Below are positions 1,435 to 20,131 of a stretch of DNA of 36,284 nt, piece after piece (the first letter of the stretch is position 1; every line of letters starts with the position of its first letter). The DNA lies in NCBI GenBank assembly GCA_019243445.1, contig JAFAUH010000289.1, positions 1 to 36,284 on the forward strand, given 5' to 3'. The position numbers were made by a program, and so were the translations under genes. The notes under the pieces were generated by a model. It did not search any database, was not told the origin of the DNA, and worked only from the letters and a program-made list of their open reading frames with translations. This stretch comes from Streptomycetaceae bacterium (lineage in GTDB: Bacteria; Actinomycetota; Actinomycetes; Streptomycetales; Streptomycetaceae).

Positions 1435-2828
1435 GTGGGCGACTGGGACAACGTGACACTCCTATTCTCCACGGGAGCTCGATCTCCGAAGCGATCGTGT
1501 CATCTGACCCTCGGAGACTTGCTGCTCGCCAACCGGTTCCCCCCGTCACTGTTCCAAGCATACGAGGTGCCTGGAGACGGGAGACTGAAGCCGGTACCGA
1601 TGTCCCTGGCTCTCGGTGAGATCCCTCCTGGCCATAAGGTCATTTTACAGTGCGTCCGGAACACCGATATCGAATCTCTGGATCCGTCGAAGCTGGAGAC
1701 GGTAGCGCATACCCACGAACCCGTCGCGGCGATGTACGAATTCCAGTACGTCGGCGCAACCCACTCCGCAGATCACAAGGTGCACCTTGTAGACGATGCC
1801 AGCCTACGCGACATCATGTTCGAGAAAATCGCTGACTTCCTGACCCAGTACACGGTCCCGGTTCCCATGGTCGCGGGCATCTCGGGCGGCGGAGACAGCA
1901 ACACCATTGTGGGTCTTCGAAGTTAACCGGGGAGGGGTGCCGCGTCGGCCGGCAAGGTTCCGCCGGATGCGGGCCGTGACCTGGGCGGACTCGCTTCGCC
2001 AGAGATGACGCGTGCTCCGCTTGCGCGGGGGTCCCCGGTTAACTTCGAAGACCCACCATTGTACAAGGTGTGCGTCGCTACGTGACTGCGGCGAGCCTGG
2101 ATTCCTCGAAGGTCAACTGCTTCACGCTGATCATGGATCCGATCTGGCCTGAATCTGCGGGGCAGCGGGCCCGAGAACTGTGCGCCGAGGCGGGATTCGA
2201 GCACCTGGTACTCTATCCGGACGATATCGCAGACCTACTCCACATGCGTGAATCGCCCGAAAAGCTGTGGGAAGAGTTCTCCGCTACTTACGAAGACTGC
2301 GCACACTTCTTCGGTACCTTCCTCATCAACCTGGCAGGCCGCCAAATCTGCGAAAACCGGGGCGGCTCGCATCTCCTCGTGGGCTACAACCGTGAGGACA
2401 TCATGGCGGAACTACTCTTCTGTCTCGTGAACGGCCGGCGCCCACTGCCCTTCCCGAAACGGCGCACGGGAGAAGTGGATTGCCTGATGCCGGTCTGGGA
2501 CGTGCCCAAGCACCTGCTGGATGCCTGCTACCCGCACTACAGTGAGATCAACTACAGCGAACGTGTGGACACGACGACCCCGCAGCGCTCCGCGATCTAC
2601 TACTTCGCGCACAGCCTCGACGCCCTCGTACCTGAGATGTCGATGTCACTCATGAGCGGTACCGCAAAGCTGATGGATGAGCTGGGCGGTTGGCAGGAAC
2701 TCTCCTCTCTTCCGGGAACGCCGCTGCTCACGACGGGAGTTGGCACGGATCACGAGCGCGAGGCGGTGGTCAGCCTGCTGAGCCGCTACTTTCCGCGCTG
2801 GCAGGTGACGGAGAGCCAGACCCCTTAG
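1435..2828 (+). pseudogene. PP-loop ATP-pyrophosphatase gene interrupted by a MITE-like element
   Basis: The GTG at 1435 follows AAAGAGGA. The first 140 residues form a small beta-rich domain, possibly ubiquitin-like (low confidence). They are followed by VAGISGGGDSN, the SGGxDS PP-loop, with Ser at residue 150. This motif adenylates a substrate with release of pyrophosphate, as in TilS, TtuA and asparagine synthetases. The frame then hits TAA at 1924-1926 inside the inserted element. From 2063 it resumes with QGVRRYVTAASLDSSK and runs to TAG at 2828, including a GYNREDIMAELLF segment like the GHNxDD region of TtuA/TilS proteins. Joining 1435-1910 to 2063-2828 gives 1,242 nt, an unbroken 413-aa protein. 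As it stands the enzyme is split and probably inactive; a short second frame from 2070 exists but lacks the PP-loop. Substrate unknown. Confidence 0.8.
1911..2054. mobile_element. 144-bp MITE-like element with 23-bp inverted repeats and 8-bp target duplication
   Basis: The ends at 1911-1933 and 2032-2054 are perfect 23-bp inverted repeats beginning GGGTCTTCGAAGTTAACC. The element is flanked by the 8-bp direct repeat ACCATTGT at 1903-1910 and 2055-2062. Its interior of about 98 bp has no coding capacity. Perfect ends, an 8-bp duplication and a GGGTCTTC-like terminus fit a non-autonomous derivative of an ISL3-type insertion sequence; the family is inference. Deleting the element and one duplication restores the host gene exactly, confirming the boundaries. 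The perfect ends suggest recent insertion. Confidence 0.92.
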
Positions 2829-2884
2829 GATACGAGCCTGACCATCGAGGCTTTGACGAGCCGGACACCGGGAGTATCACCAGC

Positions 2885-4195
2885 ATGGGGCAGGCTGCTC
2901 AGGCGCCGTCGGGGACCAGGGACCTTCTCGCCGACGAGGTACGCCGCCGTAAGGCGGCATTCGACATGCTCGCGCGGATTTTCGAAAGCTTTGGGTTCGA
3001 CCCCCTGGAGACACCAGCTTTTGAAAACCTGGACGTTATCACCGGAAAGTACGGCGAAGAAGCGTCGAAACTCATCTTCAAAATCCTTAAGCGCGGGGTG
3101 CATGAGGCATCGGGAGAGGCCGATCTGGCGCTGCGCTATGACCACACGGTGCCGTTGGCGCGTGTCATTGGCACGCACGGAGCGAAGCTCCCCACCCCTT
3201 ACAAGCGGTACGCCATCGGCCCCGTATGGCGAGCCGACCGGCCGCAGGAGGGGCGCTTCCGAGAGTTCGTCCAGTGCGATATCGACACGGTCGGCTCTCT
3301 GTCTCCGCTCGCCGATGCGGAGGTCGTGCTCGCGATTGCCCGTGGGCTGGAAGCCCTGAAGGTCAGGAAATTCACCTTCATGGTGAACTCCCGCAAAGCG
3401 CTCTACGCGCTCCTGGAGGTCTACGGCATCAGCGCGGCCGACGGACCTGGTGTTCTGGGGACTCTCGACAAGCTCGACAAGATTGGGGCCGAGGCGGTCG
3501 TCAAAGAGCTGACCAGCGAGCGAGGGCTTGCCCCCGAGGTAGCCGAGTCGCTGGTAGGGGACGTTGCCGCCGACAACCCCAGCCGCATCCGCAGGCGCCT
3601 GGATGCAACGGAGGAGGGCAGGGCCGGGCTCGCCGAAATCGACCGGCTCATTGAGCTGACCACAAGTGCCGGGCTCGCGAGCGAGCGCATCGCCTACGTT
3701 CCCCGTATGGTGCGCGGGCTGGACTACTACACGGGGGTCATCTACGAAGTCGAGGCCGACGGATACCCCGGCTCGGTCGCCGCTGGCGGGCGTTATGACC
3801 ACCTGGTCGCCACTCTAGGCGGCCCCGATGTCCCCGCCTGCGGATGCTCCATCGGTATCGAACGCATCCTCGCCGTCCAGGGTTCGCAGGACACCGAGCC
3901 ACGCGGCTTGGATGTCGCGGTGACGGTCCTCGGCGGCGAAGAAAACCTGATGCGGCTTGCTGCCGACCTTCGCGAGCAGGGCCTGCGCGTCGGCACGTAC
4001 TTGGGGGCGTCCGGCAAACTGGCCAAGCAATTGAAGTGGGCTAACGACCAGAACGCCCGGATCGCGGTCCTGCACGGCCCCGAAGAACAAGCCGCCGGGG
4101 AGGTAACACTGCGCGACATGCGGTCTGGTGACCAAACGCGGGTGCCTCTCGATGAAGCCGTGGCACAGGTGAGCGAACTGCTGGAAGGTTCCTGA
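2885..4195 (+). CDS. hisS: histidine-tRNA ligase (HisRS), 436 aa
   Basis: It charges tRNA-His with histidine in the cytoplasm. The class II synthetase signatures are present: motif 2 in RYAIGPVWRADRPQEGRFRE (from residue 108), the histidine-specific RGLDYYTG (277-284), and motif 3 around AAGGRYDHL and CGCSIGIERI. A complete C-terminal anticodon-binding domain follows (from about LDVAVTVLGG), so it is not a HisZ-type paralogue lacking that domain. The ATG at 2885 lies 56 nt after the PP-loop gene with only a weak GGGAG upstream; SGTRDLLADE just after it matches the usual HisRS N-terminus. Its sequence does not look like the housekeeping streptomycete HisRS as I remember it, and its setting is accessory, so it is probably an extra copy. 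Possible roles are self-resistance, or supplying His-tRNA to a peptide pathway (inference). Confidence 0.9.
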   Translation: MGQAAQAPSGTRDLLADEVRRRKAAFDMLARIFESFGFDPLETPAFENLDVITGKYGEEASKLIFKILKRGVHEASGEADLALRYDHTVPLARVIGTHGAKLPTPYKRYAIGPVWRADRPQEGRFREFVQCDIDTVGSLSPLADAEVVLAIARGLEALKVRKFTFMVNSRKALYALLEVYGISAADGPGVLGTLDKLDKIGAEAVVKELTSERGLAPEVAESLVGDVAADNPSRIRRRLDATEEGRAGLAEIDRLIELTTSAGLASERIAYVPRMVRGLDYYTGVIYEVEADGYPGSVAAGGRYDHLVATLGGPDVPACGCSIGIERILAVQGSQDTEPRGLDVAVTVLGGEENLMRLAADLREQGLRVGTYLGASGKLAKQLKWANDQNARIAVLHGPEEQAAGEVTLRDMRSGDQTRVPLDEAVAQVSELLEGS

Positions 4196-4453: not shown

Positions 4454-7400
4454 ATGGCGGTTGCGGTCGAGCGGGATGAGGTGGAGCGGCCGTTCATCGA
4501 ACAGCTCACGGCGATGGGCTGGCAGCACGTCCACGGACCCGACCTGAAGCGGGAGGGCCGGGCCTACCACGACGTGCTGCTTACCGAGCGCCTCACGAAG
4601 GCCCTCAAGCGCATCAACCTGCACAGCGGTTCCCCCTGGATGGCCGACGCGAACGCCGCCCGCGCGATCGCCGAGCTCGGCGGAGCCGCGATCGGTGACC
4701 GCGGACTGCTCGACGCCAACTTCGCCGCGACCGACACCCTGCTGCACGGCGCGCAGATCCCCGGACACCCGAGTCTGCACGGTGACGACGACACTCACGT
4801 CCAGTACATCGACTGGCACGTCGACGACGGCCCCGAACTGGTCGCCACACGCAATGACTTCCTCGTCGTCGACCAGCTCGAAGTGCGCACCCTCGGCGGG
4901 GAGAAGTCCGTCCTCGACCTCGTGCTGTTCGTCAACGGCATCCCGCTCGCCGTTGTCGAGTGCAAGAGCCCGCACGGCAGCGACCCGCTCGGGCTGGCGA
5001 TTCGCGACCTGCGCGCATACACCGGCGAACCGCTCGACTACGACGAGCGTGACCGCCGTGACGTCCCCTGCGGTGTCCCGGAGTTGTTCAAGACCGTGCA
5101 GCTGCTGATCGCCGCCACCGGAGACACCGCGCACCTGGGCACCATCTCCTCCAGTGAGGAGCACTTCGCCGCCTGGCGCAGCATCGCTCCGGAGGAAGAG
5201 GGCACGCTGCGACGGGAGTTGAGGCAGGCGAAGATCATCGGCCCCACCCCTGAAGGCGAGGCCCCGGCTCCGCTGACCGAGCAGCAGAAGCTGATCGGGG
5301 TCGTGCTGCGTCCGGCGAATCTGCTGAACATCGCCCGTCATTACGTTCTCACTCTCCCGCTGAAGGACGGGAGCGCCGTCAAGGCGGTCTGCCGCCACCA
5401 GCAGTACCGTGCCGTCGAGAAGGCCGTACGCAAGTTGCGCACCGGCCGTACCCGGCGGGACCCCGGCCCCGACATGGACGGCCGTGGCGGTGTCATCTGG
5501 CACACGCAAGGGTCGGGCAAGAGCCTGACCATGGCGTTCCTCGCCCGTCGGCTGCACATGCACAAGGACCCGGCGTTCAATTTGTTCACCATCGTGGTGG
5601 TCACGGATCGGACGCAGTTGCAGGGCCAGCTCGCGGCTGCGGTACGGATCAGCGGCAGCGAAGTGGCGGTCGGTGAGACCCAGTCCGAGGTCGAGGGGCT
5701 ACTGCGCGGCGGCGGACGTCGCGTCGTCTTCGCGATGATCCAAAAGTACGGTGCGGGCGGCCGGTTGACGTTCGCGAAGGACGCCGACGGGGAGGCTGAC
5801 GGGGACGATCGCGATCTCACGGCGGAACCGCGGGCCCGGGAGGCGGGCGCGAAGGGAGGGCCGGATACCGCCACGCGGCCCAGGTTCCCGCGGTGCAACG
5901 ACTCGACCCGGATCCTCGTCCTCATCGACGAGGCACACCGCTCACACACCTCCGTACTCCACGCCTGCCTGCGCGAGGCTGTGCCGAACGCCGCGCGAAT
6001 CGGGTTCACCGGCACGCCGATCATGCGCGGCAGGCTTGAGGACACCGGACGGATCTTCGGCATCGAGCCGGACGGGCGGTTCTTGGACGAGTACCGGATG
6101 GACGAGGCCGAGCGCGACGGCGTCGTGGTCCGGGTGCGGTACGAGGGGCGTACCGGCGAGGGCCGGGTACGCGACGGTGCCGCTCTGGACCGGAAGTTCG
6201 ACGACCTGGTCAGGCGACGCGATCCGGAGGAACAGAAGGCGCTCGCCCGCCGGTGGAACAGGCCCACCGAGCGCGACGTCGCCGAATCCGTGCCGATGAT
6301 CAGGGCCAAGGCCGCGGACATCCTTGAGCATTATGTGACCTCGGTGCTCCCTGGCGGGTTCAAGGCGCAGGTAGCGGCGGTCAGCCGGGATGCCGTCGTG
6401 CGGTACCGGTTCGCGCTGCGCGACGCGCGGGACGAATTGCTGCTGCGCGTCGGGGAGTTCGACCCGTGGGCGTTGCGGGGGCGCCTGCCGGAGAGACTGA
6501 AGCGCGATGAACTGCTGCTGTTGCGGGCCTGGCAGTACCGGAACGTGCTGCGCCGGATCGATTTCGTACCAGTGATTTCGGCGGGTGCGGAGCGCAAGGA
6601 GCGGCGCTGGCTGGAGTGGACCGACGCGACGCGGCAGGCCAAGCACATCGAGCGGTTCTTGGAGGACTTCCCGCAACTGCCCCCGGACAACCCCTGGGCG
6701 GCGGCCGGGGCCGCCGCGCCCGTCGTCGCGGCTTCGCCGTCGCAGCCCACCGGGCTGCCGTGGAGCAGCCCACCCATGGGCCGGACCGGCGCCGTGCGAC
6801 GGGACGACGAGGCCGATGAGCCGATCGCGTTCCTCATCGTCAAGTCGATGCTGCTGACCGGCTTCGACGCCCCGATCGAGCAGGTGCTCTACCTGGATCG
6901 GCCGATCCGGGATGCCGAACTCCTGCAGGCTGTCGCCCGGGTCAACCGGCCGGCACCCGGCAAGGCGGGGGGTTATGTCGTCGACTACTACGGCGTCTTC
7001 GCCAACCTTGCCGAGACCCTCGCGGGCTACCGTGACGACGCCCCGGTACTGTGCAGCGTGCCGGACATCGGATCCGAGGTTCCCTCGATGCAGGAGGCGG
7101 CCGAGGAGGTGCACAGGTTCCTCGCCCGCATGGGCGTCCTGGGCGTCGGGGACGGCGAGCGGCCCGGCGGCATCGCGGAGGCGCTGTTCGCGTTCCACGA
7201 CGAGGGCGACCGCCACGCTTTCGACGAACTGCTCGGCGACTTCCTTCGCGCGGTCGAGCGGGTGCTCCCCCATGAGGACGCTTTGGACTACATCCCAGAC
7301 GCCCGGAAGTGGGCCCTGCTGCAAAAGCGTCTGCGCCACCACTACCGGGATGCGCCGGGTGGGACCTTCACGCTGCGCGGCTACGGCCGCAAGGTGCGCG

Positions 7401-8047
7401 CGATGATCGCAGAACACCTGGAACTACCCGAGATCGAACAGGTCATCCCGCCTGTCTCGATCACTTCCGCGGCCTTCGACGACGCCGTACGCGAGATCCG
7501 TGAGCCGCGGGTGGCGGCGGCCGAGATGCGGCACGCGCTCCGCTTCCACCTGGAGGAGCGCGTCAAGCGCAAGGACCCGGCCAAGTTCACGGCGCTCTCC
7601 AAAGCGCTGGAGGATGTCCTTCGTAACCTGCACGGGCGGTTCGAGGAGCAATGCGAACGGCTGCACGAGCTGATCTCCGAAGCCCGCAAGGAGGAGGCGG
7701 ACGACCCCCGGATGGCGGGCCTCAGCATCGCGGAACAGCGAGTGTACAGTCAGCTCGAAAACCGACTGACCGGTCACCCGGCCTTCGACCAGCCGGATGC
7801 CGAGCTTCTGCGGCGGCTGTCGACAGGGGCGTGCGAGGTCATCGCGGAGGCGTTCACCAAGGTCACTTACCTGGGACGGCACGAGAACGTCCACTCCCTC
7901 GCCGCGGACATCTTCACGCGGCTCTTCGAGGAGGGCTTGATGCCGAAGGACGCGGACTTCGCGCCGCTCCAGGAGTTGTCACAGTTCCTGGCCGGCTTCG
8001 CCGAGAGCAACAGGTCCTCGTTCACCCGTCAGCGACCGGCACAATAG
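4454..8047 (+). CDS. hsdR: type I restriction enzyme R subunit (HsdR), 1197 aa
   Basis: HsdR is the ATP-driven translocase and nuclease of type I restriction complexes. The N-terminal PD-(D/E)xK nuclease is visible as D155 followed by E169-C-K171 (VVECKSPHG). The SF2 motor follows: Walker A GSGKS (353-357) in IWHTQGSGKSLTM, TDRTQLQGQL, DEAH (492-495), FTGTP (518-522), and the late motifs LLTGFDAP and QAVARVNRP. A GGAGGGG ribosome-binding site (4438-4444) supports the ATG at 4454. The protein is somewhat long because of two low-complexity insertions, an acidic one before DEAH and a Pro/Ala-rich one before LLTGFDAP. No hsdM or hsdS lies elsewhere in the window, so the subunit is an orphan here. 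A YgjP-like peptidase gene follows after 5 nt. Confidence 0.93.
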   Translation: MAVAVERDEVERPFIEQLTAMGWQHVHGPDLKREGRAYHDVLLTERLTKALKRINLHSGSPWMADANAARAIAELGGAAIGDRGLLDANFAATDTLLHGAQIPGHPSLHGDDDTHVQYIDWHVDDGPELVATRNDFLVVDQLEVRTLGGEKSVLDLVLFVNGIPLAVVECKSPHGSDPLGLAIRDLRAYTGEPLDYDERDRRDVPCGVPELFKTVQLLIAATGDTAHLGTISSSEEHFAAWRSIAPEEEGTLRRELRQAKIIGPTPEGEAPAPLTEQQKLIGVVLRPANLLNIARHYVLTLPLKDGSAVKAVCRHQQYRAVEKAVRKLRTGRTRRDPGPDMDGRGGVIWHTQGSGKSLTMAFLARRLHMHKDPAFNLFTIVVVTDRTQLQGQLAAAVRISGSEVAVGETQSEVEGLLRGGGRRVVFAMIQKYGAGGRLTFAKDADGEADGDDRDLTAEPRAREAGAKGGPDTATRPRFPRCNDSTRILVLIDEAHRSHTSVLHACLREAVPNAARIGFTGTPIMRGRLEDTGRIFGIEPDGRFLDEYRMDEAERDGVVVRVRYEGRTGEGRVRDGAALDRKFDDLVRRRDPEEQKALARRWNRPTERDVAESVPMIRAKAADILEHYVTSVLPGGFKAQVAAVSRDAVVRYRFALRDARDELLLRVGEFDPWALRGRLPERLKRDELLLLRAWQYRNVLRRIDFVPVISAGAERKERRWLEWTDATRQAKHIERFLEDFPQLPPDNPWAAAGAAAPVVAASPSQPTGLPWSSPPMGRTGAVRRDDEADEPIAFLIVKSMLLTGFDAPIEQVLYLDRPIRDAELLQAVARVNRPAPGKAGGYVVDYYGVFANLAETLAGYRDDAPVLCSVPDIGSEVPSMQEAAEEVHRFLARMGVLGVGDGERPGGIAEALFAFHDEGDRHAFDELLGDFLRAVERVLPHEDALDYIPDARKWALLQKRLRHHYRDAPGGTFTLRGYGRKVRAMIAEHLELPEIEQVIPPVSITSAAFDDAVREIREPRVAAAEMRHALRFHLEERVKRKDPAKFTALSKALEDVLRNLHGRFEEQCERLHELISEARKEEADDPRMAGLSIAEQRVYSQLENRLTGHPAFDQPDAELLRRLSTGACEVIAEAFTKVTYLGRHENVHSLAADIFTRLFEEGLMPKDADFAPLQELSQFLAGFAESNRSSFTRQRPAQ

Positions 8048-8052
8048 GCGGC

Positions 8053-8844
8053 GTGTCTGCCGCGCCCGATGTAGCCGAAGCCTGCGCCGCCCCTCTGACG
8101 GACGGGCAGATACTCAGCGTGGGCGGGCAGAGGCTGAACGTACGGGTGAGCGCTCGCCGCACCAGGCTCGCCCTGACCGTCGAGCGGGACGGGACGGTCA
8201 CTTTGCACGCGCCCCACGACTGCACGACCGAGCGGGCCAAGGACTTCGTCCACCGGCACCGCCGCTGGATGGAGGGGAAACTCGCCCTGCGTGAGAGGCT
8301 GCGCCCCGTACACCCGACACGGCGGCTGGTCGACGGTGAGATCTTCCGCTATTTGGGACGGGCGTACCGTCTTCAGGTGCGGGATGTGCCCGGGGAGTCC
8401 GTGCGCCTGGTATGCGGCAGGCTGCAGTTGGACGCCGGGGCAGCGACCGATCCCCGCCGTGGCCGCCGGGAGATCACCGGCTGGTACCGGCGCGTCGGGC
8501 GGGAGTGGGCCCTTCGCAGGCTTCAGCCGTGGGCTGCCCGCCTCGACGTCGCCGCGCCACGTGTGGAGGTGCGGGACTTGGGGCTGCGCTGGGGCTCCTA
8601 CACCCCCGGAGGCGAAGAGCCAGGGCTCATGGCCCTGAACTGGGCGGTATTTCAATTGCCCGCGCACCTCGTCGACTATGTGATTGCGCATGAGCTGGCT
8701 CATATCACCGTCTCAGGGCACGGGCGGGAGTACTGGCGTGTGCTGCGCCGGGCGCTCCCCGAGTGCGAAGAGCGCAGGAACGATCTGGACGAGCTGGGGC
8801 GCAGGGTCTGGCTTGGCGAAGTCGAAGCTCAGCCGTGCGGCTGA
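8053..8844 (+). CDS. YgjP/DUF45-type zinc metallopeptidase, 263 aa
   Basis: The GTG at 8053 lies 5 nt after the hsdR stop, so the two genes form an operon. The C-terminal half holds the zinc-binding motif HELAH (in VIAHELAHI), followed by GREYWRVLRRALPE, and preceded by RWGSYTPGG and the LNWAVFQLP strand that characterise YgjP/DUF45 (SprT-like) proteins. The N-terminal half contains the family's beta-rich segment (VRVSARRTRLALTVERDG). No signal peptide is seen, so it is probably cytoplasmic. YgjP-family genes are commonly found next to type I restriction genes; their role there is not established and proteolytic control of the complex is a guess. Confidence 0.88.
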   Translation: MSAAPDVAEACAAPLTDGQILSVGGQRLNVRVSARRTRLALTVERDGTVTLHAPHDCTTERAKDFVHRHRRWMEGKLALRERLRPVHPTRRLVDGEIFRYLGRAYRLQVRDVPGESVRLVCGRLQLDAGAATDPRRGRREITGWYRRVGREWALRRLQPWAARLDVAAPRVEVRDLGLRWGSYTPGGEEPGLMALNWAVFQLPAHLVDYVIAHELAHITVSGHGREYWRVLRRALPECEERRNDLDELGRRVWLGEVEAQPCG

Positions 8845-8921
8845 CCGAGGCGATGCACGATCTGTTCGGCGCAGAAGATCTCGGGAGGATGGCGCATGCG
8901 CACCCGCAAAACCCCACCCAG

Positions 8922-8981
8922 GTCAAGAGCCCTTCACAGCAGGCTCCAGGATCGCCACGCACTCCACGTGATGCGTCATCG
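8922..8981 (-). repeat. 60-bp copy of the RNA-methyltransferase gene 3' end (left)
   Basis: This matches 10002-10061 at 58 of 60 positions and includes the terminal codons and stop of the methyltransferase gene (AVKGS, then stop). The homology begins one base beyond the stop. It looks like the left product of an insertion at that gene's 3' end. The rest of 8845-9178 holds no gene I can support. Confidence 0.9.
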
Positions 8982-9178
8982 CAATCATGTCGGCCTGGAC
9001 GGGATCGCGAAAACCAGCAGGTCAGACGGGGATTCCCGGCCTGTCATGCGTCCTCTCGGACGGCCAGAGCGTCACGGCGCCCGAAGCGCCCGCTCCCCAG
9101 AGCGCTGTCGGACCTGGCCCGCCCTTCGACAAAACGCCATCTTGTCGCACCTTCCCGTCAGAGGTGGGGCAGCTCCTT

Positions 9179-9622
9179 TCACAGAGGCAGGTCATCGGGC
9201 AGTACCCGGAATGCTTTGTACCGGCCGAGCGGGCGTACGGCGCGGAAGTCGCGACGGTCGAGGGTGAGGACAGCGTCGGTGTCGTAGTCGGCGGCAAGAG
9301 CTACGTTTACGGCATCCGCCAGATCCAGGTGGAGGCCGTGGTAGCGGGCACGCACCGACTGGGCGACCTCCAGATGCTCTTCCGTGACTTCGGGGACGAC
9401 GACACGGCCGCGACGCATCCAGTGCCGGATGTCATCGACCGCGCTGAGCGCCGCTTCCCGGCCGAGTTCACGGGTGGCGACATGGTCGATCTCAGCGAGC
9501 AGCAGAGGCGACATCACCAGCAGACCCGCGGCCATGATCGCTTCGTTTGTAGCCTGATGCTCCGGGTGGGTCGAATCGAGCGCTGCCAAGAGTCCGGACG
9601 TGTCCGCGATGACGATGATCAC
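9179..9622 (-). CDS. vapC: PIN-domain toxin, VapC family, 147 aa
   Basis: VapC toxins are Mg2+-dependent ribonucleases that usually cleave tRNA or rRNA. The PIN acidic residues are recognisable: Asp in IADTSGLLAALD near the start, Glu in LLAEIDHVATRE, Asp in LDLADAVNVALA, and a final Asp in LTLDRRDF. The length is typical. The start at 9622 overlaps the antitoxin stop by 4 bp, the normal antitoxin-first order. The pair sits between two copies of the methyltransferase 3' end, suggesting acquisition as a unit. Confidence 0.9.
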   Translation of the reverse strand: MIIVIADTSGLLAALDSTHPEHQATNEAIMAAGLLVMSPLLLAEIDHVATRELGREAALSAVDDIRHWMRRGRVVVPEVTEEHLEVAQSVRARYHGLHLDLADAVNVALAADYDTDAVLTLDRRDFRAVRPLGRYKAFRVLPDDLPL

Positions 9623-9879
9623 GCGGCGGATCCGGTCTCGGCCTCGCGGCGAACAGCGTCAGCGACGGCGTCGCGCACGTCACGCTTCGTAGGTGTGCGG
9701 CCGGATCCCTCGAAGGTACGGGAGAAGAGGGGCTCATCCCAGACACGGTTGGCCATGGCCGCGAGGTGGATGCCCTGGCGGATGATCTCTGCCTCACTGA
9801 TACCCCGCCGCTTGGCCGCTTCCTTGATGATGGCGAGGTCTTCCGGGTCGGCATAGACATTGGTCCGCTTCATAGCCAT
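9619..9879 (-). CDS. vapB: VapB-type antitoxin, ribbon-helix-helix family, 86 aa
   Basis: The N-terminus MKRTNVYADPEDLAIIKEAA followed by RGISEAEIIRQGI is a CopG/Arc-type ribbon-helix-helix DNA-binding domain. The C-terminal tail is the likely toxin-binding part. The start may be the ATG at 9879 or the one two codons later; the second would place MKRT first. In such pairs the antitoxin, alone or with the toxin, represses its own promoter, here in the 120 bp between 9880 and the repeat at 10002. Confidence 0.88.
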   Translation of the reverse strand: MAMKRTNVYADPEDLAIIKEAAKRRGISEAEIIRQGIHLAAMANRVWDEPLFSRTFEGSGRTPTKRDVRDAVADAVRREAETGSAA

Positions 9880-10001
9880 GTACCAAGTTTAGCGTATGTG
9901 CCATTTTGATGTATGTCGTGTTCAAGTCCTCCCCCGCCGCCACCTCTACGACGAGGCCACCACATGCCGAAAGGCACGGAAAGACTTATCATCGTCGGTC
10001 T

Positions 10002-10061
10002 GTCAGGAGCCCTTCACAGCAGGCTCAAGGATCGCCACGCACTCCACGTGATGCGTCATCG
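10002..10061 (-). repeat. 60-bp repeat at the methyltransferase 3' end (right)
   Basis: This is the resident copy, forming the last codons of the methyltransferase gene. It matches 8922-8981 with two mismatches. The two copies directly flank a segment of about 1.0 kb carrying vapBC, as attachment-site repeats flank an integrated element. No integrase lies between them. Confidence 0.9.
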
Positions 10062-11361
10062 GGAAGAGGTCGAACGCCCGCAGCGATACAGGGCGGTAGC
10101 CCGCCTTTCCGAAGTAGGACAGATCGCGGGCGAGTGCCGCCGGGTCGCAGGCGACGTAGGCGATGGCACGGGCGCCGAGGCCGGCAAGGTGGGCGACCAC
10201 TGTTCCACCCGCGCCCGTACGGGGCGGATCGAGGACGATCAGGTCGGTCTCGGTGACTCCGGTACGGGGCAACACCCGCTCCACTGTGCCGTGTTCGATA
10301 CGGACCCGGTCGAGGTCGGCGAGGTTGTGCCGGGCATCCGCGACCGCGCGCTTCGCCGACTCGATGCCGAGTACGGCGCCGCGCTCCCCCACCCGGTCGG
10401 CGAGCGCACCCGCGAAGAGGCCGACGCCGCAGTACAGATCGAGCGCCGTCTCGCCCGGCCTCGGCGTGAGCCCTTCGAGCACCGCATCAACCAGCAGATC
10501 CGCAGCCTGGTGATGGACCTGCCAGAAACCGCCGGAGCCGACCCGCCAGGTGCGGCCCGCCGCACGCTCCCGTACGAAGTCGCGGCCGTGCACCCGGTGC
10601 GCTCCACCCTGGTCGTCGATCCGCAACACCGAGACCGGCCGGTCGAGTTCGATGAGCGGCAGCCTGGCACCCGGATCGGGAGTGATGATCACTTGGCGGT
10701 CGGAGGAGCCGGTGGACGCGATGGCCTCGATCGCGGTGATCGACGGCCAGCTGCGTTTCTCGATGCCCAGCTCGCTGACACCGGGCGCGGCGATCAGGCA
10801 GTGGTCGATCGGTTCGACCTCGTGCGAACGATGACGGCGCAGCCCCGCGCGTCCCTCGGCGTCGACGGCGTACTGCACCCGCGTGCGCCACGCCGGAACC
10901 TGACCCCGGGGCACCTTGTCGCCGGGGGCGGGTTCGACTGTGCCGTCCCACCCGGCCTCCTGCGCAGTGAGCCCGGCGAGGCGGGCGAGCTGCTCGGTGA
11001 TCACAGCAGCCTTCAACCGCCGCTGAGCGCCAGGTGCGGTGTGCTGCCAGTCGCAGCCGCCGCATTTGCCCGGCCCGGAGAACGGGCAGGGCGCGGCAAT
11101 CCGGTCGGTGGAGGCGTCGAGTACCTCGACCGCGTCGGCGCGCAGGAAGCGGGAGTCCTCGTCACCCTCCGTGATCTTGGCCCGGACTCGTTCGCCGGGC
11201 AGTGCGTGCCGGACGAAGAGCACCCGCCCCTCATGGCGTGCGATGCAGTGCCCGCCGTGCGCCACCGGGCCGACCTCGACCTCATAGAGCTCGCCGACGA
11301 GCGAGGCGGCCGTGGAGTCGGTCCGGTCCTTCGTACGGTTCGTACGGGTGCGGTTCTTCAC
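10003..11361 (-). CDS. TRAM-domain RNA (uracil-5) methyltransferase, RlmD/TrmA family, 452 aa
   Basis: It transfers a methyl group from S-adenosylmethionine to C5 of uridine in rRNA or tRNA. The N-terminal TRAM RNA-binding domain (VGPVAHGGHCIARHEGRVLF) is followed by a Fe-S-type Cys cluster (C-x7-C-x2-C in CPFSGPGKCGGCDW), the SAM motif DLYCGVGLFAGALADRVG, DPPRTGAGG and the catalytic Cys in YVACDPAALARDL. I chose the GTG at 11361, preceded by CAGGAG; an upstream TTG at 11415 would add 18 poorly conserved residues. Which nucleotide is modified cannot be told from sequence. The last 60 bp of the gene are duplicated at 8922-8981. Confidence 0.88.
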   Translation of the reverse strand: MKNRTRTNRTKDRTDSTAASLVGELYEVEVGPVAHGGHCIARHEGRVLFVRHALPGERVRAKITEGDEDSRFLRADAVEVLDASTDRIAAPCPFSGPGKCGGCDWQHTAPGAQRRLKAAVITEQLARLAGLTAQEAGWDGTVEPAPGDKVPRGQVPAWRTRVQYAVDAEGRAGLRRHRSHEVEPIDHCLIAAPGVSELGIEKRSWPSITAIEAIASTGSSDRQVIITPDPGARLPLIELDRPVSVLRIDDQGGAHRVHGRDFVRERAAGRTWRVGSGGFWQVHHQAADLLVDAVLEGLTPRPGETALDLYCGVGLFAGALADRVGERGAVLGIESAKRAVADARHNLADLDRVRIEHGTVERVLPRTGVTETDLIVLDPPRTGAGGTVVAHLAGLGARAIAYVACDPAALARDLSYFGKAGYRPVSLRAFDLFPMTHHVECVAILEPAVKGS

Positions 11362-11435
11362 GTCGGGCGGACTCCTGAGCTGGATGGTGGATTGGGCGGT
11401 GGGCTGGACGGGCAACAGCCCTTCAGTCTACGTCG

Positions 11436-11518: not shown

Positions 11519-11682
11519 GAGAGCTGCCACGAGCCCCGGCAAGGGAGGCGAATCGTGCACGGCTTTGCAGGCAGGTTCCCGGTCGGCAGGCTACGCGTGT
11601 AGCTTTGGCCGCGGTCTGAGATTCTTAAAGGGCCTGAGATCAGCTGGATCTGCAGGAATCTGCCGGAAGGACAGGCGACAGC

Positions 11683-12351
11683 GTGCACGTCGTAATCATG
11701 GGCTGCGGGAGAGTGGGATCGACTCTCGCGCACTCCTTGGAGCAAAAGGGTCATACGGTCGCTGTGGTCGACCAGGACCCGACGGCGTTCCGCCGTCTCG
11801 GGGCTGGGTTCTCCGGACGCCGTGTGACCGGAGTCGGTTATGACCAGGACACCTTGCGCGAGGCCGGCATCGAGGAAGCGGGCGCATTCGCCGCAGTGAG
11901 CAGCGGCGACAACTCCAACATCATCGCGGCTCGGGTAGCCCGGGAAATGTTCGGCGTGGAGAATGTGGCGGCCCGCATCTACGATCCGCGCCGCGCCGAG
12001 GTCTACCAGCGACTCGGCATTCCCACCGTGGCGACAGTGCGGTGGACCGCCGACCAGATGCTGCGCCGTTTGCTGCCTTCGGGCGCCGAACCGCTGTGGC
12101 GGGACCCGAGCGGCGGAGTGCAGTTGGCCGAAGTGTCGACCTCCACTGCATGGGTTGGCCAGCGAATCAGCAAGCTGCAGACCGAGACGGGCGTACGTGT
12201 GGCTTTCCTCACTCGATTGGGCGAAGCAATGCTGCCGGCGTCGGACACGGTGCTGCAGGAGGGCGACCTCGTGCACGTGATGATGCGCACCAATGAGGTC
12301 GAGAAGGTCGAAGCGGCCTTCGCCAAAGGGCCCGAGGAGGCTCACACATGA
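11683..12351 (+). CDS. ceoB: TrkA-family K+ regulatory protein (first RCK protein), 222 aa
   Basis: This is a cytoplasmic RCK subunit that binds NAD(H) or nucleotide and gates a K+ channel or transporter. The N-terminal Rossmann motif is MGCGRVGSTLA (GxGxxG), with an acidic residue ending the second strand (VAVVDQD). The C-terminal RCK_C part includes TGVRVAFLTRLGEAMLPASD. The GTG at 11683 follows GGAAGGA. The stop overlaps the next start (ATGA), so the pair is coupled, as in actinobacterial ceoB-ceoC. No membrane partner such as TrkH lies beside it. Confidence 0.9.
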   Translation: MHVVIMGCGRVGSTLAHSLEQKGHTVAVVDQDPTAFRRLGAGFSGRRVTGVGYDQDTLREAGIEEAGAFAAVSSGDNSNIIAARVAREMFGVENVAARIYDPRRAEVYQRLGIPTVATVRWTADQMLRRLLPSGAEPLWRDPSGGVQLAEVSTSTAWVGQRISKLQTETGVRVAFLTRLGEAMLPASDTVLQEGDLVHVMMRTNEVEKVEAAFAKGPEEAHT

Positions 12352-13025
12352 GGGTCGCTATAGCGGGAGCGGGCGCGGTTGGCCGGTCCATCGCGGGTGA
12401 GCTGCTGGAGAACGGGCATGAAGTCCTGCTCATCGACAAGAACCCGGGATCCATCTCGGTGGAACGGGTTCCGCAGGCGGAGTGGCTGCTTGCCGACGCG
12501 TGCGAGATCACCTCGCTGGACGAGGCGGCGCTGCACCGCTGCAACGTGGTCATCGCGGCGACCGGTGACGACAAGGTGAACTTGGTCGTCTCGCTGCTCG
12601 CCAAGACCGAGTACGGGGTGCCGCGAGTCGTCGCCCGCGTCAACAACCCGAAGAATGAATGGCTGTTCACCGAGGCCTGGGGTGTGGACGTCGCCGTCTC
12701 CACGCCGCGGCTGATGTCGGCCCTGGTCGAGGAGGCGGTCAGCGTCGGCGACCTGGTGCGGCTGATGCGATTCAGCCAGGGCGACGCCAACCTCGTCGAG
12801 CTGACCCTGCCGCCGGAGGCGGCGCTGGTCGGCACACGAGTGGGAGACGTCGCGTGGCCCACCGATACCTCTTTGGTGACGATCATCCGTGGCCAGCGGG
12901 TGCTCACCCCGTCGAAGGACGACGCGTTGGAGGCGGGCGACGAGATGCTGTTCGTGGCCGCGCAGGATCGGGAGGAGCAGTTGGAGGAGCTGTTGTCGGT
13001 GACGCGCGAGGACGCCGGAAGCTGA
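12348..13025 (+). CDS. ceoC: TrkA-family K+ regulatory protein (second RCK protein), 225 aa
   Basis: The N-terminus MRVAIAGAGAVGRSIAGELL is an RCK_N Rossmann fold (GxGxxG) with VLLIDKNP at the second strand; RCK_C follows (VGDVAWPTDTSLVTIIRGQR, EMLFVAAQ). A GAGGAGG ribosome-binding site lies inside the end of the first gene. Residues MRFSQGDANLVELTLP link the two halves. It probably forms a hetero-complex with the preceding protein. Name by analogy with mycobacterial ceoC. Confidence 0.9.
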   Translation: MRVAIAGAGAVGRSIAGELLENGHEVLLIDKNPGSISVERVPQAEWLLADACEITSLDEAALHRCNVVIAATGDDKVNLVVSLLAKTEYGVPRVVARVNNPKNEWLFTEAWGVDVAVSTPRLMSALVEEAVSVGDLVRLMRFSQGDANLVELTLPPEAALVGTRVGDVAWPTDTSLVTIIRGQRVLTPSKDDALEAGDEMLFVAAQDREEQLEELLSVTREDAGS

Positions 13026-13044
13026 GCCGCGCCGACTGCATTAC

Positions 13045-13071
13045 GAGGGTCCGGGCCATGCCCGGGCCCTC
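13045..13071. terminator. bidirectional hairpin between convergent genes
   Basis: GAGGGTCCGGGC (13045-13056) pairs with GCCCGGGCCCTC (13060-13071), 12 bp with one G-T pair and a 3-nt loop, between the ceoC stop and the end of the minus-strand DUF3159 gene. Confidence 0.8.
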
Positions 13072-13083
13072 CGCGTTATGGCG

Positions 13084-13860
13084 TCATCGCACCGAAGCTT
13101 CGCCGGTTGCTTCGCGCTCGGCCTGCTCCGCCGCCTCGGTGGTCTCTGCCGCCTCTGCCGCCTCTGCCGCCTCCATCTCGGCGATCACATCGATCGGCGG
13201 CGGCGCCTTGGCAAGGAAGATCCACGTCAGATAGACCGCGAGCAGGAACGGCGGGATACCGAGGGCGATCTTGACCCAGCCGAGCTGCATCGCGCTGCCC
13301 CACCAGTAGAGGGGGAAGAGGATCGCCGACTTGGCAAGCAGGATGATGCCCCACGCCCAGGTGGATTTGGTGTAGGCGCGGAAGCGGCCCGGGTTGCGGG
13401 TACGCCAGGACAGGTTCTCCCGCAGGATCGGGCCGAGCAGCACACCAATCAGCGGATAGCGCAACAACGCGGAGATGAGGTACGCCACAGCGAGGCCGAG
13501 GGTGTAGAGCATGCCCGGCAGATAGAAGTTTTTGGCGTTGCCGGAGAGCATCGCGAAGAACGCGCCGAAAGCGACGCCGAACACTCCGCTGAAGGCGTGT
13601 TTGAGCGTTTCCTTACGGACGAGCCGTGCGATTGCCAGTACCAGGCTCAGCCCCAGGGCCGCCAGCGCCGAGACAGTGATCGAGTGCTGAATGGTGAAGA
13701 TGAGGACGAAGACCAAGCCCGGCACGGTCGTGTCGACCATGCCGCGCATACCGCCGAACGCTTCGAGGAGCGCCGCATCAGCTGCTGCCTTCGCCGCAGT
13801 TGCCTCGTCGCCCGCTGCCTGATCGGTCCGCTGATCGGTCCGCTTGTGGGTGCCCAACAC
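13084..13860 (-). CDS. DUF3159-family membrane protein, 258 aa
   Basis: An Ala-rich N-terminus is followed by several hydrophobic segments (VPGLVFVLIFTI, ALAALGLSLVLAIARLV, FGAFFAMLSG, LYTLGLAVAYLISALL, WGIILLAKSAILFPLYWWG, IPPFLLAVYLTWIFLA), about five to six membrane helices. The FRAYTKSTWAWG and WVKIALGIPPF regions fit the actinobacterial DUF3159 family. The GTG start lies 3 nt after the stop of the OB-fold gene, so the two are co-transcribed. The C-terminal tail is an imperfect Ala-Glu repeat (AAEAAEAAETTEAAEQAE) encoded by a short tandem DNA repeat near 13145-13175. Function is unknown. Confidence 0.8.
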   Translation of the reverse strand: MLGTHKRTDQRTDQAAGDEATAAKAAADAALLEAFGGMRGMVDTTVPGLVFVLIFTIQHSITVSALAALGLSLVLAIARLVRKETLKHAFSGVFGVAFGAFFAMLSGNAKNFYLPGMLYTLGLAVAYLISALLRYPLIGVLLGPILRENLSWRTRNPGRFRAYTKSTWAWGIILLAKSAILFPLYWWGSAMQLGWVKIALGIPPFLLAVYLTWIFLAKAPPPIDVIAEMEAAEAAEAAETTEAAEQAEREATGEASVR

Positions 13861-13863
13861 CGG

Positions 13864-14262
13864 CTACTCCTGTCCGACGGGACGCAGTTCGTACTTGGGG
13901 TTGAACAGCACCGGGCGGCCACGGTTCACCGAGACCCGACCCGATGCGATGATCTTGCGCCCCGGTTCGATGCCCGCGATGCTGCGGCGGCCGAGCCACA
14001 CGACGTCGAGTGCGGCCGATCCGTCGAACAGCTGCGCCTCGAGGGCCGGCACGCCGGCCCTCGGTCGAAGCGTAACTGTGCGCAGTGTTCCAGTGACGGT
14101 CACCACCTCGCGGTCGTGGCACTGCCCTATCGGTGTACAGCCGACTGCCGCCGTGTCCTGCTGCAGCTCTTGTGACTCCAACTCCTCCTGTGTGGAGGAG
14201 AAGCGGTTCAGCATCCGGCGGAAACGTCCGGCCGGTCGATCCGAACGGGTGGCACCACTCAT
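13864..14262 (-). CDS. OB-fold nucleic-acid-binding protein, 132 aa
   Basis: A short basic N-terminus is followed by an OB-type beta barrel: EVVTVTGTLRTVTLRP, then LEAQLFDGSAALDVVWLGRR and GRKIIASGRVSVNRGRPVLFNP. This pattern occurs in tRNA-synthetase-type and RecG-type OB domains, so single-stranded nucleic acid binding is likely. It lies between kdpE and the DUF3159 gene on the same strand. No catalytic motif is seen and its exact role is unknown. Confidence 0.8.
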   Translation of the reverse strand: MSGATRSDRPAGRFRRMLNRFSSTQEELESQELQQDTAAVGCTPIGQCHDREVVTVTGTLRTVTLRPRAGVPALEAQLFDGSAALDVVWLGRRSIAGIEPGRKIIASGRVSVNRGRPVLFNPKYELRPVGQE

Positions 14263-14345
14263 ACCGGCAGACTACCGGTCGAGAACCGGATTCCGGCGCC
14301 GCTGGTAGGTCACGGATTCGCTTCCCGCCCGCTCCCGTGCGCCGC

Positions 14346-15182
14346 TCACGGTTCGAAGCGGTAGCCCATGCCGGGCTCGGTGATGAAATGCCGGGGGTGG
14401 GCCGGGTCGGCCTCGAGCTTGCGGCGCAGCTGCGCCATATAGACACGCAGGTAGTTGGTCTCCCTCCCGTATGCGGGCCCCCAGACCTCCTGCAGCAGCT
14501 GCTTTTGGCTGATCAGTCGGCCGGTGTTGCGTACCAGCACTTCGAGCAAGTGCCATTCGGTCGGGGTGAGGCGTACATCCTTACCGTCCCGGTTGACCTT
14601 CTTGGCTGCCAGGTCGACGGTGAACGAGCCGGTCTCGATCAACACCGCCTCGTCCTCGTCACTGCCCGGCGCGGCTCTGCGGACGGCGGCGCGCAGCCGG
14701 GCGAGTAGTTCGTCCATGCCGAAAGGCTTGGTGACGTAGTCGTCGGCTCCGGCGTCGAGCGCCTCGACCTTCTCGTCGGACGCCTGGCGGGCGGAGAGCA
14801 CGATGATCGGCACGCGGGTCCATCCGCGCAGGCCCTTGATCACTTCAGCGCCGTCCATGTCGGGCAGGCCGAGATCGAGAAGGACCACGTCAGGATGGCA
14901 GGCGGCGGCGAGCTGGAGCGCGGTGGCGCCGTCGGAAGCAGCGTCCACCTCGTATTTGCGGGCGCGCAGGTTGATCACGAGGGCACGGACGATCTGCGGC
15001 TCGTCATCCACCACGAGCACTCTGATGGCTCGCTGCGGCAGAGGGTATCTCTCGCCGGAGGCAGGGGGAGGCTGATGTAGCGGGCGGGAGTGGCCCCCGG
15101 ATGGTTCCGGCATGAGACCTGCCTTTCGCGTCATGAAGTCGTTCATGAGGTGGTTCATGGGCTCGTTCATGAGGTGGTTCAT
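14346..15182 (-). CDS. kdpE: response regulator KdpE, up to 278 aa
   Basis: It is an OmpR/PhoB-type regulator that activates the kdp genes after phosphorylation by KdpD. In the longest reading the receiver domain begins at RVLVVDDEPQ, with acidic D59 and D60, phospho-acceptor D103 (LLDLGLPDMDG) and K152 (VTKPFG). A winged-helix DNA-binding domain follows (VRLTPTEWHLLEVLVRN, GRETNYLRVYMAQLRRKLE, ITEPGMGYRF). The first ATG overlaps the kdpD stop (ATGA, 15179-15182). A 12-bp repeat then supplies further in-frame ATGs at codons 5, 9, 13 and 17, and another at codon 24 follows AAGGCAGG. The extra N-terminal residues before the receiver domain are unusual, and the true start could be any of these. 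Confidence 0.93.
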   Translation of the reverse strand: MNHLMNEPMNHLMNDFMTRKAGLMPEPSGGHSRPLHQPPPASGERYPLPQRAIRVLVVDDEPQIVRALVINLRARKYEVDAASDGATALQLAAACHPDVVLLDLGLPDMDGAEVIKGLRGWTRVPIIVLSARQASDEKVEALDAGADDYVTKPFGMDELLARLRAAVRRAAPGSDEDEAVLIETGSFTVDLAAKKVNRDGKDVRLTPTEWHLLEVLVRNTGRLISQKQLLQEVWGPAYGRETNYLRVYMAQLRRKLEADPAHPRHFITEPGMGYRFEP

Positions 15183-15188
15183 GAGGTG
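15129..15188. repeat. 12-bp tandem repeat across the kdpD/kdpE junction
   Basis: Five 12-bp units resembling GTTCATGAGGTG (plus-strand reading) run from 15129 to 15188; three are identical, at 15141, 15165 and 15177. On the minus strand each gives the codon set CACCTCATGAAC or a variant, producing an in-frame ATG every four codons at the start of kdpE. The array also covers the kdpD stop. Confidence 0.88.
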
Positions 15189-17716
15189 GCTTCAGCGGGA
15201 AGCTGCGGTGGGGCGGACGGTAGCTGCGCGCCGACTGCCCGCAGAGTGAGGATCATGGTGAGCCCGCCACCGGGTGTGTCGTCGGCGACGAGGGTGCCGT
15301 CCATGGCCTCGGCAAAACCGCGGGCAACTGCGAGGCCGAGGCCGACCCCGGCGCCGCGCGGGGCGTCACCGTACCGCTGGAAGGGCTCGAATATCCGGTC
15401 TTTCGCATGTTCCGGTACGCCCGGGCCACGGTCGGCGATGCGCAGCTCGACGCGGTCGTGCAGGGCGCTGGCCGAGATGAGCACGCGCTGGTCGTGCGGG
15501 CTGTACTTGACGGCGTTCTCGACGACGTTGGCGACCGCCCGTTCCAGCAGCCCGGGGTCAGCAAAGATCATCGGAAGCGTTTCGGGGATGTCGAGAGTGA
15601 CCGAATCGGGCGGCACCCCGCCGAGTGCCATCGGCACCACCTCGTCGAGGTCGACCTCCTGGAGCAGCGGGGTGACAGTACCGGTCTGCAGCCGGGACAT
15701 GTCGAGCAAGTTGCCCACCAGGTGGTCGAGCTTGTCGGCGCCGTCCTCGATGGATTCGAGCAGCTCTGCTTCGTCCTGGGGCGACCAGGCGACGTCATCG
15801 GAGCGCAGTGAGGAGACAGCAGCTTTGATGGCGGCGAGCGGGGTGCGCAGGTCGTGCGAGACGGCAGCGAGCAAGGCAGTGCGTATGCGGTTGCCCTCGG
15901 CCAGCTCATTGGCCTGTTCGGCTTGGCCCATGAGGCGTTGGCGGTCGAGGAGTACGGCGGCCTGGGAGGCGAATGCGGAGAGCAGCCGCTGGTCCTCAGC
16001 GGGCAGTACGCGGCCGGTGAGGGCCAGCGACATCGTGCCGTCCACTGGCACGTCGACGTCCGCGTCGTCCGGGCTGCTGCAGGGGTGCGGGCCCACGCTT
16101 CCGGCGCAGGTCCATTCGCGTTCGCTGTCCCGTTCGAGCAGTGCAACGGATTCGAGGTTGAAGGTCTCGCGGACCCGTTCCAGCAGCGCGTCGAGCGAAT
16201 CCTCGCCACGCAGCACGGTGCCGGCGAGGAAGGAGAGCACTTCGGACTCGGCGCGCAGCCGTGCTGCCTGGTGGGTGCGGCGCGCCGCGAGGTCGACGAC
16301 GGAGGCGACCGATGCCGCGACCGCCAAGAAGATCGCGATGGCGACGATGTTACGGGGGTCGGAGATCGTCCAGGTGTGGACGGGCGGGGTGAAGTACCAG
16401 TTGAGCAACAGTGAGCCGACCACCGCCGAGGCAAGTGCCGGGAGCATCCCCCCGACCAGTGCTGCCGCTACCGTCAGTGTCAAGAAGAGCAGCATGTCGT
16501 TGGCGAGGCCGGGATGGATGCTGGTGAGGATCAAGGTCATCAGCGTGGGGCCCGCACAGCCGGTGAGCCAGCCCGCGACGATGCGGGAGCGGCCGAGCCG
16601 TGCCCCGCGCGCGACGGGCAGGCCTCGGCCCTTGCCGACCTCCTCGTGCGTGACGATGTGCACATCGATGTCGGGGCCGGAGTCGCGGGCGACGAGGGCG
16701 CCGACGCCGGGGCCGAAAATGTACTGCCATGCCTTGCGGCGGCTGGAACCCAGCACTATCTGGGTGGCGTTGACACCCCGAGCGAAGTCAAGCAGCGCGG
16801 TGGGGATGTCATCGCCTATGACCTGGTGGAACGATCCACCGAGGTCCTCGACAAGGGTGCGCTGGACGGCGAGTTCCTTGGGCGAGCCGGATGCCAGACC
16901 GTCGCTGCGGGCGATGTAGACGGCGAGGATCGCGCTCCCCGAGCCCTTTGCCGCTATCCGGGCGGCGCGCCGGATCAGCGTACGGCCCTCGGGTCCGCCG
17001 GTGAGGCCGACGACGATGCGCTCGCGTGCCTGCCAGGTCGAGGAGATCCGGTGCTCGGCGCGGTACTGCTGCAGGTATTCGTCGACCCGGTCGGCGACCC
17101 ACAGCAGGGCGAGTTCGCGCAGGGCGGTGAGGTTACCGGGTCGGAAGTAGTTGGACAGCGCTGCGTCGATCTTGTCGGGTTTGTAGATGTTTCCGTGGGC
17201 CATCCGGCGGCGCAATGCCTGCGGCGACATGTCAACGAGCTCAATCTGGTCAGCGCGACGGACCACCTCATCGGGCACGGTCTCGCGTTGCCGGACGCCC
17301 GTTATGGACTCGACGACGTCGCCGAGCGATTCCAGGTGCTGGATGTTGAGGTTCGAGATGACGTCGATGCCTGCCGCGAGCAGTTCGTCGATGTCCTGCC
17401 AGCGTTTGGCGTGGCGGCAGCCGGGGACGTTGGTGTGGGCGAGCTCGTCGACGAGCACGACGTGCGGATGGCGCTCAAGGATGGCGTCGATGTCCATCTC
17501 GGTGAAGGTGGTGCCGCGGTATTCGATCTCACGGCGCGGCACGACTTCCAAGCCGTGCAGCATGACTTCGGTGCGCGGGCGGTTGTGGTGCTCCACGAAG
17601 CCGACGACGACGTCCGTGCCGCGTTCCAGGCGCCGGTGCGCCTCGGAGAGCATGTCGTACGTCTTGCCGACGCCGGGGGCCGCTCCTAGGTAGATGCGCA
17701 GTGTTCCGCGTGCCAT
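15179..17716 (-). CDS. kdpD: sensor histidine kinase KdpD, 845 aa
   Basis: KdpD is a membrane sensor of K+ limitation that phosphorylates KdpE. In order: the N-terminal KdpD domain with Walker A GAAPGVGKT (11-19) and LVDELAHTN; a universal-stress-type domain (RIVVGLTGGPEGR, QIVLGSSRRKAWQ); four membrane helices (LMTLILTSI to VVGSLLLNWYF and IVAIAIFLAVAAS); a GAF-like region; the phospho-accepting H621 in AAVSHDLRTPL; and the ATP-binding NVVENAVKYSP, DRGPGVP and GVGLGLAVARGF boxes. The length is normal for the family. The gene lies after the kimA-like gene and is coupled to kdpE by a 4-bp overlap. The 235-bp gap before it (17717-17951) holds a short dispersed repeat at 17746-17769. Confidence 0.95.
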   Translation of the reverse strand: MARGTLRIYLGAAPGVGKTYDMLSEAHRRLERGTDVVVGFVEHHNRPRTEVMLHGLEVVPRREIEYRGTTFTEMDIDAILERHPHVVLVDELAHTNVPGCRHAKRWQDIDELLAAGIDVISNLNIQHLESLGDVVESITGVRQRETVPDEVVRRADQIELVDMSPQALRRRMAHGNIYKPDKIDAALSNYFRPGNLTALRELALLWVADRVDEYLQQYRAEHRISSTWQARERIVVGLTGGPEGRTLIRRAARIAAKGSGSAILAVYIARSDGLASGSPKELAVQRTLVEDLGGSFHQVIGDDIPTALLDFARGVNATQIVLGSSRRKAWQYIFGPGVGALVARDSGPDIDVHIVTHEEVGKGRGLPVARGARLGRSRIVAGWLTGCAGPTLMTLILTSIHPGLANDMLLFLTLTVAAALVGGMLPALASAVVGSLLLNWYFTPPVHTWTISDPRNIVAIAIFLAVAASVASVVDLAARRTHQAARLRAESEVLSFLAGTVLRGEDSLDALLERVRETFNLESVALLERDSEREWTCAGSVGPHPCSSPDDADVDVPVDGTMSLALTGRVLPAEDQRLLSAFASQAAVLLDRQRLMGQAEQANELAEGNRIRTALLAAVSHDLRTPLAAIKAAVSSLRSDDVAWSPQDEAELLESIEDGADKLDHLVGNLLDMSRLQTGTVTPLLQEVDLDEVVPMALGGVPPDSVTLDIPETLPMIFADPGLLERAVANVVENAVKYSPHDQRVLISASALHDRVELRIADRGPGVPEHAKDRIFEPFQRYGDAPRGAGVGLGLAVARGFAEAMDGTLVADDTPGGGLTMILTLRAVGAQLPSAPPQLPAEATS

Positions 17717-19969: not shown

Positions 19970-20131
19970 CTCAGATGGGTGACATTCGCGTTAGGAAGTC
20001 GTGAAGATTTCGCAGGTCAGAGCAAGGATCGCGGCAAAGTGCTTGTGACCGAAGTCTCAATGCTGCATGCGGGAATCTCATCGATGCGGGATTTCGGGGC
20101 AGCTCCAGGGCCTGTCGCACAACAGAAACGG

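Follow-up and report, generated by a model that had tools for sequence, protein, structure and literature searches.

Why does the end of a methyltransferase gene occur twice, with a toxin–antitoxin gene pair between the two copies? This question is raised by a locus in the window, by which we mean the whole 36,284-nucleotide stretch of DNA analyzed here; it occupies bases 1 to 36,284 of contig C10. Among the genomes examined, the host falls outside the main GTDB Streptomyces genus, in a two-species genus that it shares with 'Streptomyces humicola'. The duplicated end belongs to a TRAM/TrmA-type gene, which we call trm, and the enclosed pair is vapBC-like. We consider it likely that positions 8922–10002 are an integrase-less vapBC-only cassette flanked by attachment sites, and that this cassette is one unit of a family that inserts by site-specific recombination at the 3′ end of trm.

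Results

The trm end is repeated around a vapBC pair

By direct reading, the end of trm forms a direct repeat in which 58 of 60 nucleotides are identical at a spacing of 1080 bp; the pair stretches to 71 nucleotides at 90% identity. A 31-nucleotide core pattern, searched with up to three mismatches allowed, was found at two places in the window, which are the repeat copies, and in none of 100 dinucleotide-preserving shuffles of the window used as a control. The entire genome holds exactly two core copies, both within the window. Reading and pattern search agree on what a first-pass annotation of this DNA had described, a gene end duplicated about 1.08 kb apart with vapBC in between. The annotation had also taken the resident gene to be complete, and trm is indeed an intact open reading frame with both of its domains (Table 1). 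We searched the window for tRNA genes and Rfam families as an attachment site and found none. At 97%, the window's two cores resemble each other even in their variable tail, in which the sister species S. humicola differs; this likeness would be compatible with insertion within this lineage, or with one copy having converted the other.

Table 1 Features at the duplicated trm end and to its left (window positions)
Feature	Position	Strand	Basis
trm, TRAM / tRNA_U5-meth_tr methyltransferase gene, intact, target gene	10003-11415	-	domain matches TRAM + tRNA_U5-meth_tr; conserved in relatives
Core copy 1, trm 3′ end including stop codon, gene-side attachment core	10002-10061	-	repeat + core-plus-arm model
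vapB-like ribbon-helix-helix antitoxin gene	9619-9879	-	RHH_1 4e-06
vapC-like PIN-domain toxin gene, overlapping vapB	9179-9622	-	PIN 5e-14; relatives at same site
Element-side arm of distal junction	8982-9075	-	arm profile match 8999-9074; core-plus-arm model 8943-9075
Core copy 2, distal attachment core, far end of vapBC unit	8922-8981	-	repeat + core-plus-arm model
Stretch behind distal core, resembling the sequence immediately after trm in S. humicola	8897-8921	-	window 8897-8992 vs L033 5520-5429, 77%
YgjP-like metallopeptidase gene, accessory, left neighbour	8053-8844	+	domain search
Type I restriction R-subunit gene (hsdR-like), accessory, left neighbour	4454-8047	+	HSDR_N, SWI2_SNF2, T1R_D3-like

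Open reading frames and domain searches revealed only vapBC between the cores, and neither an integrase, whose absence the annotation had pointed out, nor a rep or tra gene was recognised there. The two genes lie on the trm strand, with the small antitoxin gene preceding the PIN toxin gene and overlapping it by 4 nucleotides; this is the gene layout of a VapBC type II toxin–antitoxin system, and such activity is predicted for the pair.

The closest VapC relatives, with 88–92% amino acid identity, occupy the same trm site. One vapBC relative has both core copies, with a Doc gene or unit directly behind (G112), and another has both copies 3.3 kb apart (G287). In three further genomes vapBC adjoins trm (G360, G353, and G261), and in two it adjoins half a core, with no trm within the stretch read (G292 and G301). 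Additional VapC relatives of 85–89% identity are situated elsewhere and lack the core. When the site label was placed on a VapC tree, whose internal support is weak, it was clustered, requiring three changes, a number as low as which was reached in 0 of 500 shuffles.

An element-specific arm adjoins the distal core

Copies of the trm end without the gene, which we refer to as orphan cores, are common in relatives, where the match covers the last 20–29 codons only. Where trm would continue into its gene body, orphan cores instead have a conserved arm consisting of TGACGCTCGTTTGACGCTC, about 50 nucleotides, TCTGACCTG..TTTC, and about 20 nucleotides, after which the core begins. The arm positions are invariant among integrase-less units. 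We built an arm-only profile from 18 orphan sites of other species' elements, leaving the window and the vapBC elements out of the training set. In a search over all collected loci, this profile matched the window right beside the left core with an E value of 1.2e-8. Since an independently derived arm profile matches beside the left copy, we regard this copy as the distal end of a unit that has inserted here, not as a second gene. A model of core plus arm had its genome-wide best place, at 79 bits, at the same junction, and its sole other strong match was trm's own core. Direct reading of the minus strand shows a single TGACGCTC at 9067–9074 and TCTGACC at 9020–9026; the outer TGACGCTC of the arm has been lost. 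The gene-side end of the vapBC unit, compared with left-end profiles of classes A and B, gave no convincing match in the window.

At several loci (L038, L060, L043, L054, and others), the gene-side flank about 110 nucleotides behind the trm stop contains repeats of the same arm motif. Depending on the species, these read either GACGCTC or GACGCAC, with all repeats of a locus changed together, and the two versions look as though two integrase specificities existed.

The same junction recurs with varied cargo

The 3′ flank of trm was compared across 80 named relatives, about 15 of which have a second core no more than 10 kb downstream of trm, at spacings of about 1–7.6 kb and with differing genes in between. 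The repeat is the same and the cargo is not, the pattern of a hotspot that the annotation had suggested looking for; strains with both copies and nothing between them were not seen, and other cargo between the copies was found, as expected.

A sample of 200 Streptomycetaceae genomes contains at least about 49 junctions with an arm, spread over 37 genomes and six genera. This tally is a lower bound obtained with strict filters, counting, among the matches listed, those that score about 59 bits or more and reach into the arm. The units span about 1–36 kb, spacings from junction to junction or from gene to junction being 1.1–36 kb, and their cargo includes VapBC, RHH-Doc, AbiEii, and TIR genes. 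Junctions also occur in tandem: one genome has five on a single contig over 48 kb (G175), and four have two each (G157, G161, G143, and G263). Two linear Streptomyces plasmids likewise carry paired junctions, and the portions read contain no trm gene; it is possible that linear plasmids serve as vehicles of the units. Among phage records, there was no core-plus-arm match, and the best integrase was merely 35% identical. Junctions are not confined to trm, because one in G009 sits 184 kb upstream of this gene.

That junction (L121; G009:C1, near 6309340) has a full arm, with left-end-like sequence behind it, and may be read as an array or an insertion away from the gene. On the plasmids, the junctions lie at 20102 and 39079 (L220; NZ_CP108566.1) and at 8093 and 15675 (L221; NZ_CP120984.1), where they flank genes for CHAT-domain, SseB-family, and T7SS-secreted-like proteins. 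A unit between two cores at 11635–17623 of another locus (L103) encodes proteins that, judged by eye, are conservon-like (sensor kinase, roadblock-type protein, and GTPase).

A tyrosine integrase accompanies a minority of the junctions

A motif search of the loci with long flanks yielded just two tyrosine integrases, one lying between the copies (L073) and the other in L038, which are 76% identical to each other. The former has a Phage_integrase domain and an N-terminal SAM-like domain, and a small HTH protein is encoded next to it (L073:13892–14158). Relatives are present in 11 of 298 family genomes. An integrase associated with the site, the search for which the annotation had suggested, does exist: in three genomes (G151, G132, and G282), the gene lies about 50–300 bp from a core, or about 120–300 bp from a junction, and points toward the core. 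A cognate integrase at an E value of 1e-50 or better is encoded in only 5 of the 37 junction-bearing genomes, and most units are therefore without a recombinase. The window's own genome, a 414-contig assembly, yielded no cognate integrase, only distant ones of 26–30% identity. On the plasmids, too, the integrase was not found, though arrays were.

These observations bear out the annotation's central proposal of an element inserted at a gene's 3′ end that is now a minimal cassette or a remnant: site, repeat, and arm are the same, cargo varies, units stand in tandem, and a tyrosine integrase accompanies a minority of them.

Small toxin–antitoxin units move between species

The Doc toxin (Fic/DOC), which is 86–94% identical across seven loci, is encoded 610–800 nucleotides after a core in all seven, and an RHH gene adjoins the Doc gene wherever read. 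In one locus (L100), a second core after the Doc gene delimits a unit of about 1 kb. In four loci, the AbiEii gene (92–94% identity) lies 944–971 nucleotides ahead of a core, and two of these are units of about 1.7 kb. We compared four-fold degenerate sites in species pairs where trm was also comparable, including cross-genus pairs. The Doc and AbiEii units were 72–90% identical at these sites (about 75–90% for Doc and 83–87% for AbiEii), against 54–69% for trm. Because the same genes recur at fixed distances from the core and their synonymous sites are far more alike than those of trm, we conclude that the Doc and AbiEii units move horizontally.

We also looked in synonymous sites for a transfer of vapBC postdating the species splits. 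The synonymous identity of vapBC to its relatives was 47–61%, a little higher than the 46–50% of trm. As the two values scarcely differ, a transfer later than the species splits cannot be claimed for the vapBC unit.

Discussion

The vapBC unit is best read as a CIME-like, att-flanked cassette in an accretion array, whose movement would have been brought about by an integrase acting in trans. A cognate tyrosine integrase would insert units flanked by core plus arm into the 60–70-bp core at the trm 3′ end, presumably rebuilding the gene's end each time, and the second core left behind a unit would accept more units and so give rise to arrays. Units without an integrase would be moved by that of a co-resident element. 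We infer this movement in trans because junctions outnumber integrases, the arm keeps invariant positions in units that lack an integrase, and small units are mobile. Going by the known behaviour of toxin–antitoxin systems, vapBC may help to retain the unit as an anchor that penalises loss. The unit in the window is probably sedentary and partly decayed now, since no cognate integrase was found in its genome, one arm repeat has been lost, and the gene-side arm is unrecognisable.

Three other explanations have to be weighed against this reading. That the left copy is the remnant of a paralogous methyltransferase gene, or that the gene end was duplicated in tandem around vapBC by chance, seems scarcely credible to us. 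The left copy is in frame with the gene end and includes the stop codon, as such an origin would predict, but orphan copies lack a gene body, comprising the last 20–29 codons only, and what lies upstream of their core is the arm motif and not gene sequence. We reject a paralogous gene remnant on these grounds; the annotation had named a left copy belonging to a paralogous gene as an observation that would speak against an inserted element. RecA-dependent homologous exchange, in which cores and flanking genes provide the homology at a site of the 'minimal mobile element' type and an integrase has no role today, is improbable. It would suit the 60–70-bp cores that the units have in common, the conserved flanking backbone, and the lack of an integrase in most genomes; it leaves unexplained why the element-side arm is conserved, why an integrase lies beside the arm, and why arrays exist on plasmids without trm, and 60–70 bp at 80–90% identity is scant homology.

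A stronger competitor, which we nevertheless think unlikely, is that an integrase-bearing ICE or IME at trm was reduced by deletion to vapBC and its ends, such that nothing moved in trans and the small units are independent end-points of decay. Decay of Streptomyces ICEs to cargo between two direct repeats has been documented (PMC9513070), the arm in the window is partly lost, and certain units retain an integrase, all of which agree with this history. Independent decay would not, however, account for small Doc and AbiEii units that keep one layout from species to species and from one array position to another, at a synonymous identity far above that of trm, and the arm positions of integrase-less units are invariant. 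A wider picture, which we offer tentatively and with less than even confidence, is that Streptomycetaceae maintain integrase-less cassettes in integron-like arrays, located behind trm and on linear plasmids. These cassettes, rich in toxin–antitoxin and possible defence genes, would circulate independently, inserted and shuffled in trans by rare integrase-bearing helpers, with the toxin–antitoxin units anchoring the array.

The category to which the unit belongs is already known from CIMEs and accretion (PMC5704250) and from Streptomyces ICEs that have decayed and retain two direct repeats (PMC9513070). A CIME is described as a product of decay, moved in cis by an ICE that joins it (PMC5704250). 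Like the unit studied here, CIMEs of the ICESt1 type of tandem accretion are flanked by att sites, free of integrase and transfer genes, located at a gene 3′ end, and in tandem with core-sharing elements (PMC5704250). The vapBC unit has attL-/attR-like flanks at a specific target, with two cores and an arm at the distal one, and the arm on the gene side cannot be recognised; it contains vapBC alone, without genes for integration or transfer. Integrase-bearing elements with the same junction exist, and the unit may descend from one of them. The trm family differs from CIMEs in that many integrase-less units share one arm, including single-operon toxin–antitoxin units of about 1 kb, and in that the same unit recurs across species. 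An autonomous AICE, ICE, or IME would have its own integrase, whereas there is none between the cores and no cognate one was found in the genome.

Decayed Streptomyces AICEs, or DAICEs, are alike in bacterial family, in site-specific insertion, in having different elements per site, and in leaving cargo and two repeats (PMC9513070). Their sites are tRNA genes and rlmN, with repeats of 11–46 nucleotides (PMC9513070), whereas the vapBC unit has no recognised rep or tra gene and uses the 3′ end of a TRAM/TrmA-type gene. CALINs, which are integrons without integrase, similarly form arrays of small units between repeated recombination sites, with the integrase mostly missing (PMC11389934). They are, however, built on attC sites and IntI, whereas the sites here consist of core plus arm and derive their homology from the trm 3′ end, and the recombinase found with them is of the Phage_integrase type with an N-terminal SAM-like domain; judged by these sites and this recombinase, the arrays are neither integrons nor CALINs. 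IMEs in rumA of Streptococcus likewise target a broadly comparable rRNA methyltransferase gene (PMC5704250), but do so with a serine integrase at an internal site, whereas here the 3′ end is used and trm stays intact. Among open-licence papers, we found none that describes the trm site or the arm-defined family.

The definition by core plus arm lets many accessory units of Streptomyces genomes be delimited. It also provides a testable case of small toxin–antitoxin genes spreading without a recombinase of their own, and supplies an integrase together with its attachment site at a conserved gene that stays intact.

Accessory DNA to the left of the distal core

The repeat pair had been annotated as marking the boundary between accessory and conserved DNA. 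This holds for the gene-side copy only and not for the left one, as DNA not shared with the sister species runs leftward from the left core to the contig start. Window and contig start at the same base, so that the accessory region reaches its far end outside the window. The backbone that S. humicola has in common with this genome resumes there about 1.06 kb after trm; here, that backbone starts at position 8238 of a different contig, C48, with mostly non-shared DNA ahead of it. If contigs C10 and C48 join, the distance from trm to the backbone would be about 17 kb or more. The 25 nucleotides directly behind the left core, which resemble the sequence following trm in S. humicola (Table 1), may be the old flank behind the insertion, or the start of a next unit.

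The window DNA left of 8922 holds the hsdR-like, YgjP-like, and histidyl-tRNA-synthetase-like genes. The hsdR-like gene is absent from the trm flanks of relatives. Close relatives of the YgjP-like gene occur in 9 of the 298 family genomes but are missing from the sister species; we considered it as a unit in other species and set this aside on sequence identity, the relatives there being only 51–59% identical.

The histidyl-tRNA-synthetase-like gene, at 2690–4195 in the accessory part, lies next to an interrupted open reading frame (1435–1926 and 2070–2828). The frame is split by a 144-bp insert with palindromic ends at 1911–2054 (region 1903–2062), which ends in GGGTCTTCGAAGTTAACCGGGGA and its reverse complement and is flanked on both sides by an 8-bp direct repeat, ACCATTGT. 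Read by eye, this insert looks like a MITE.
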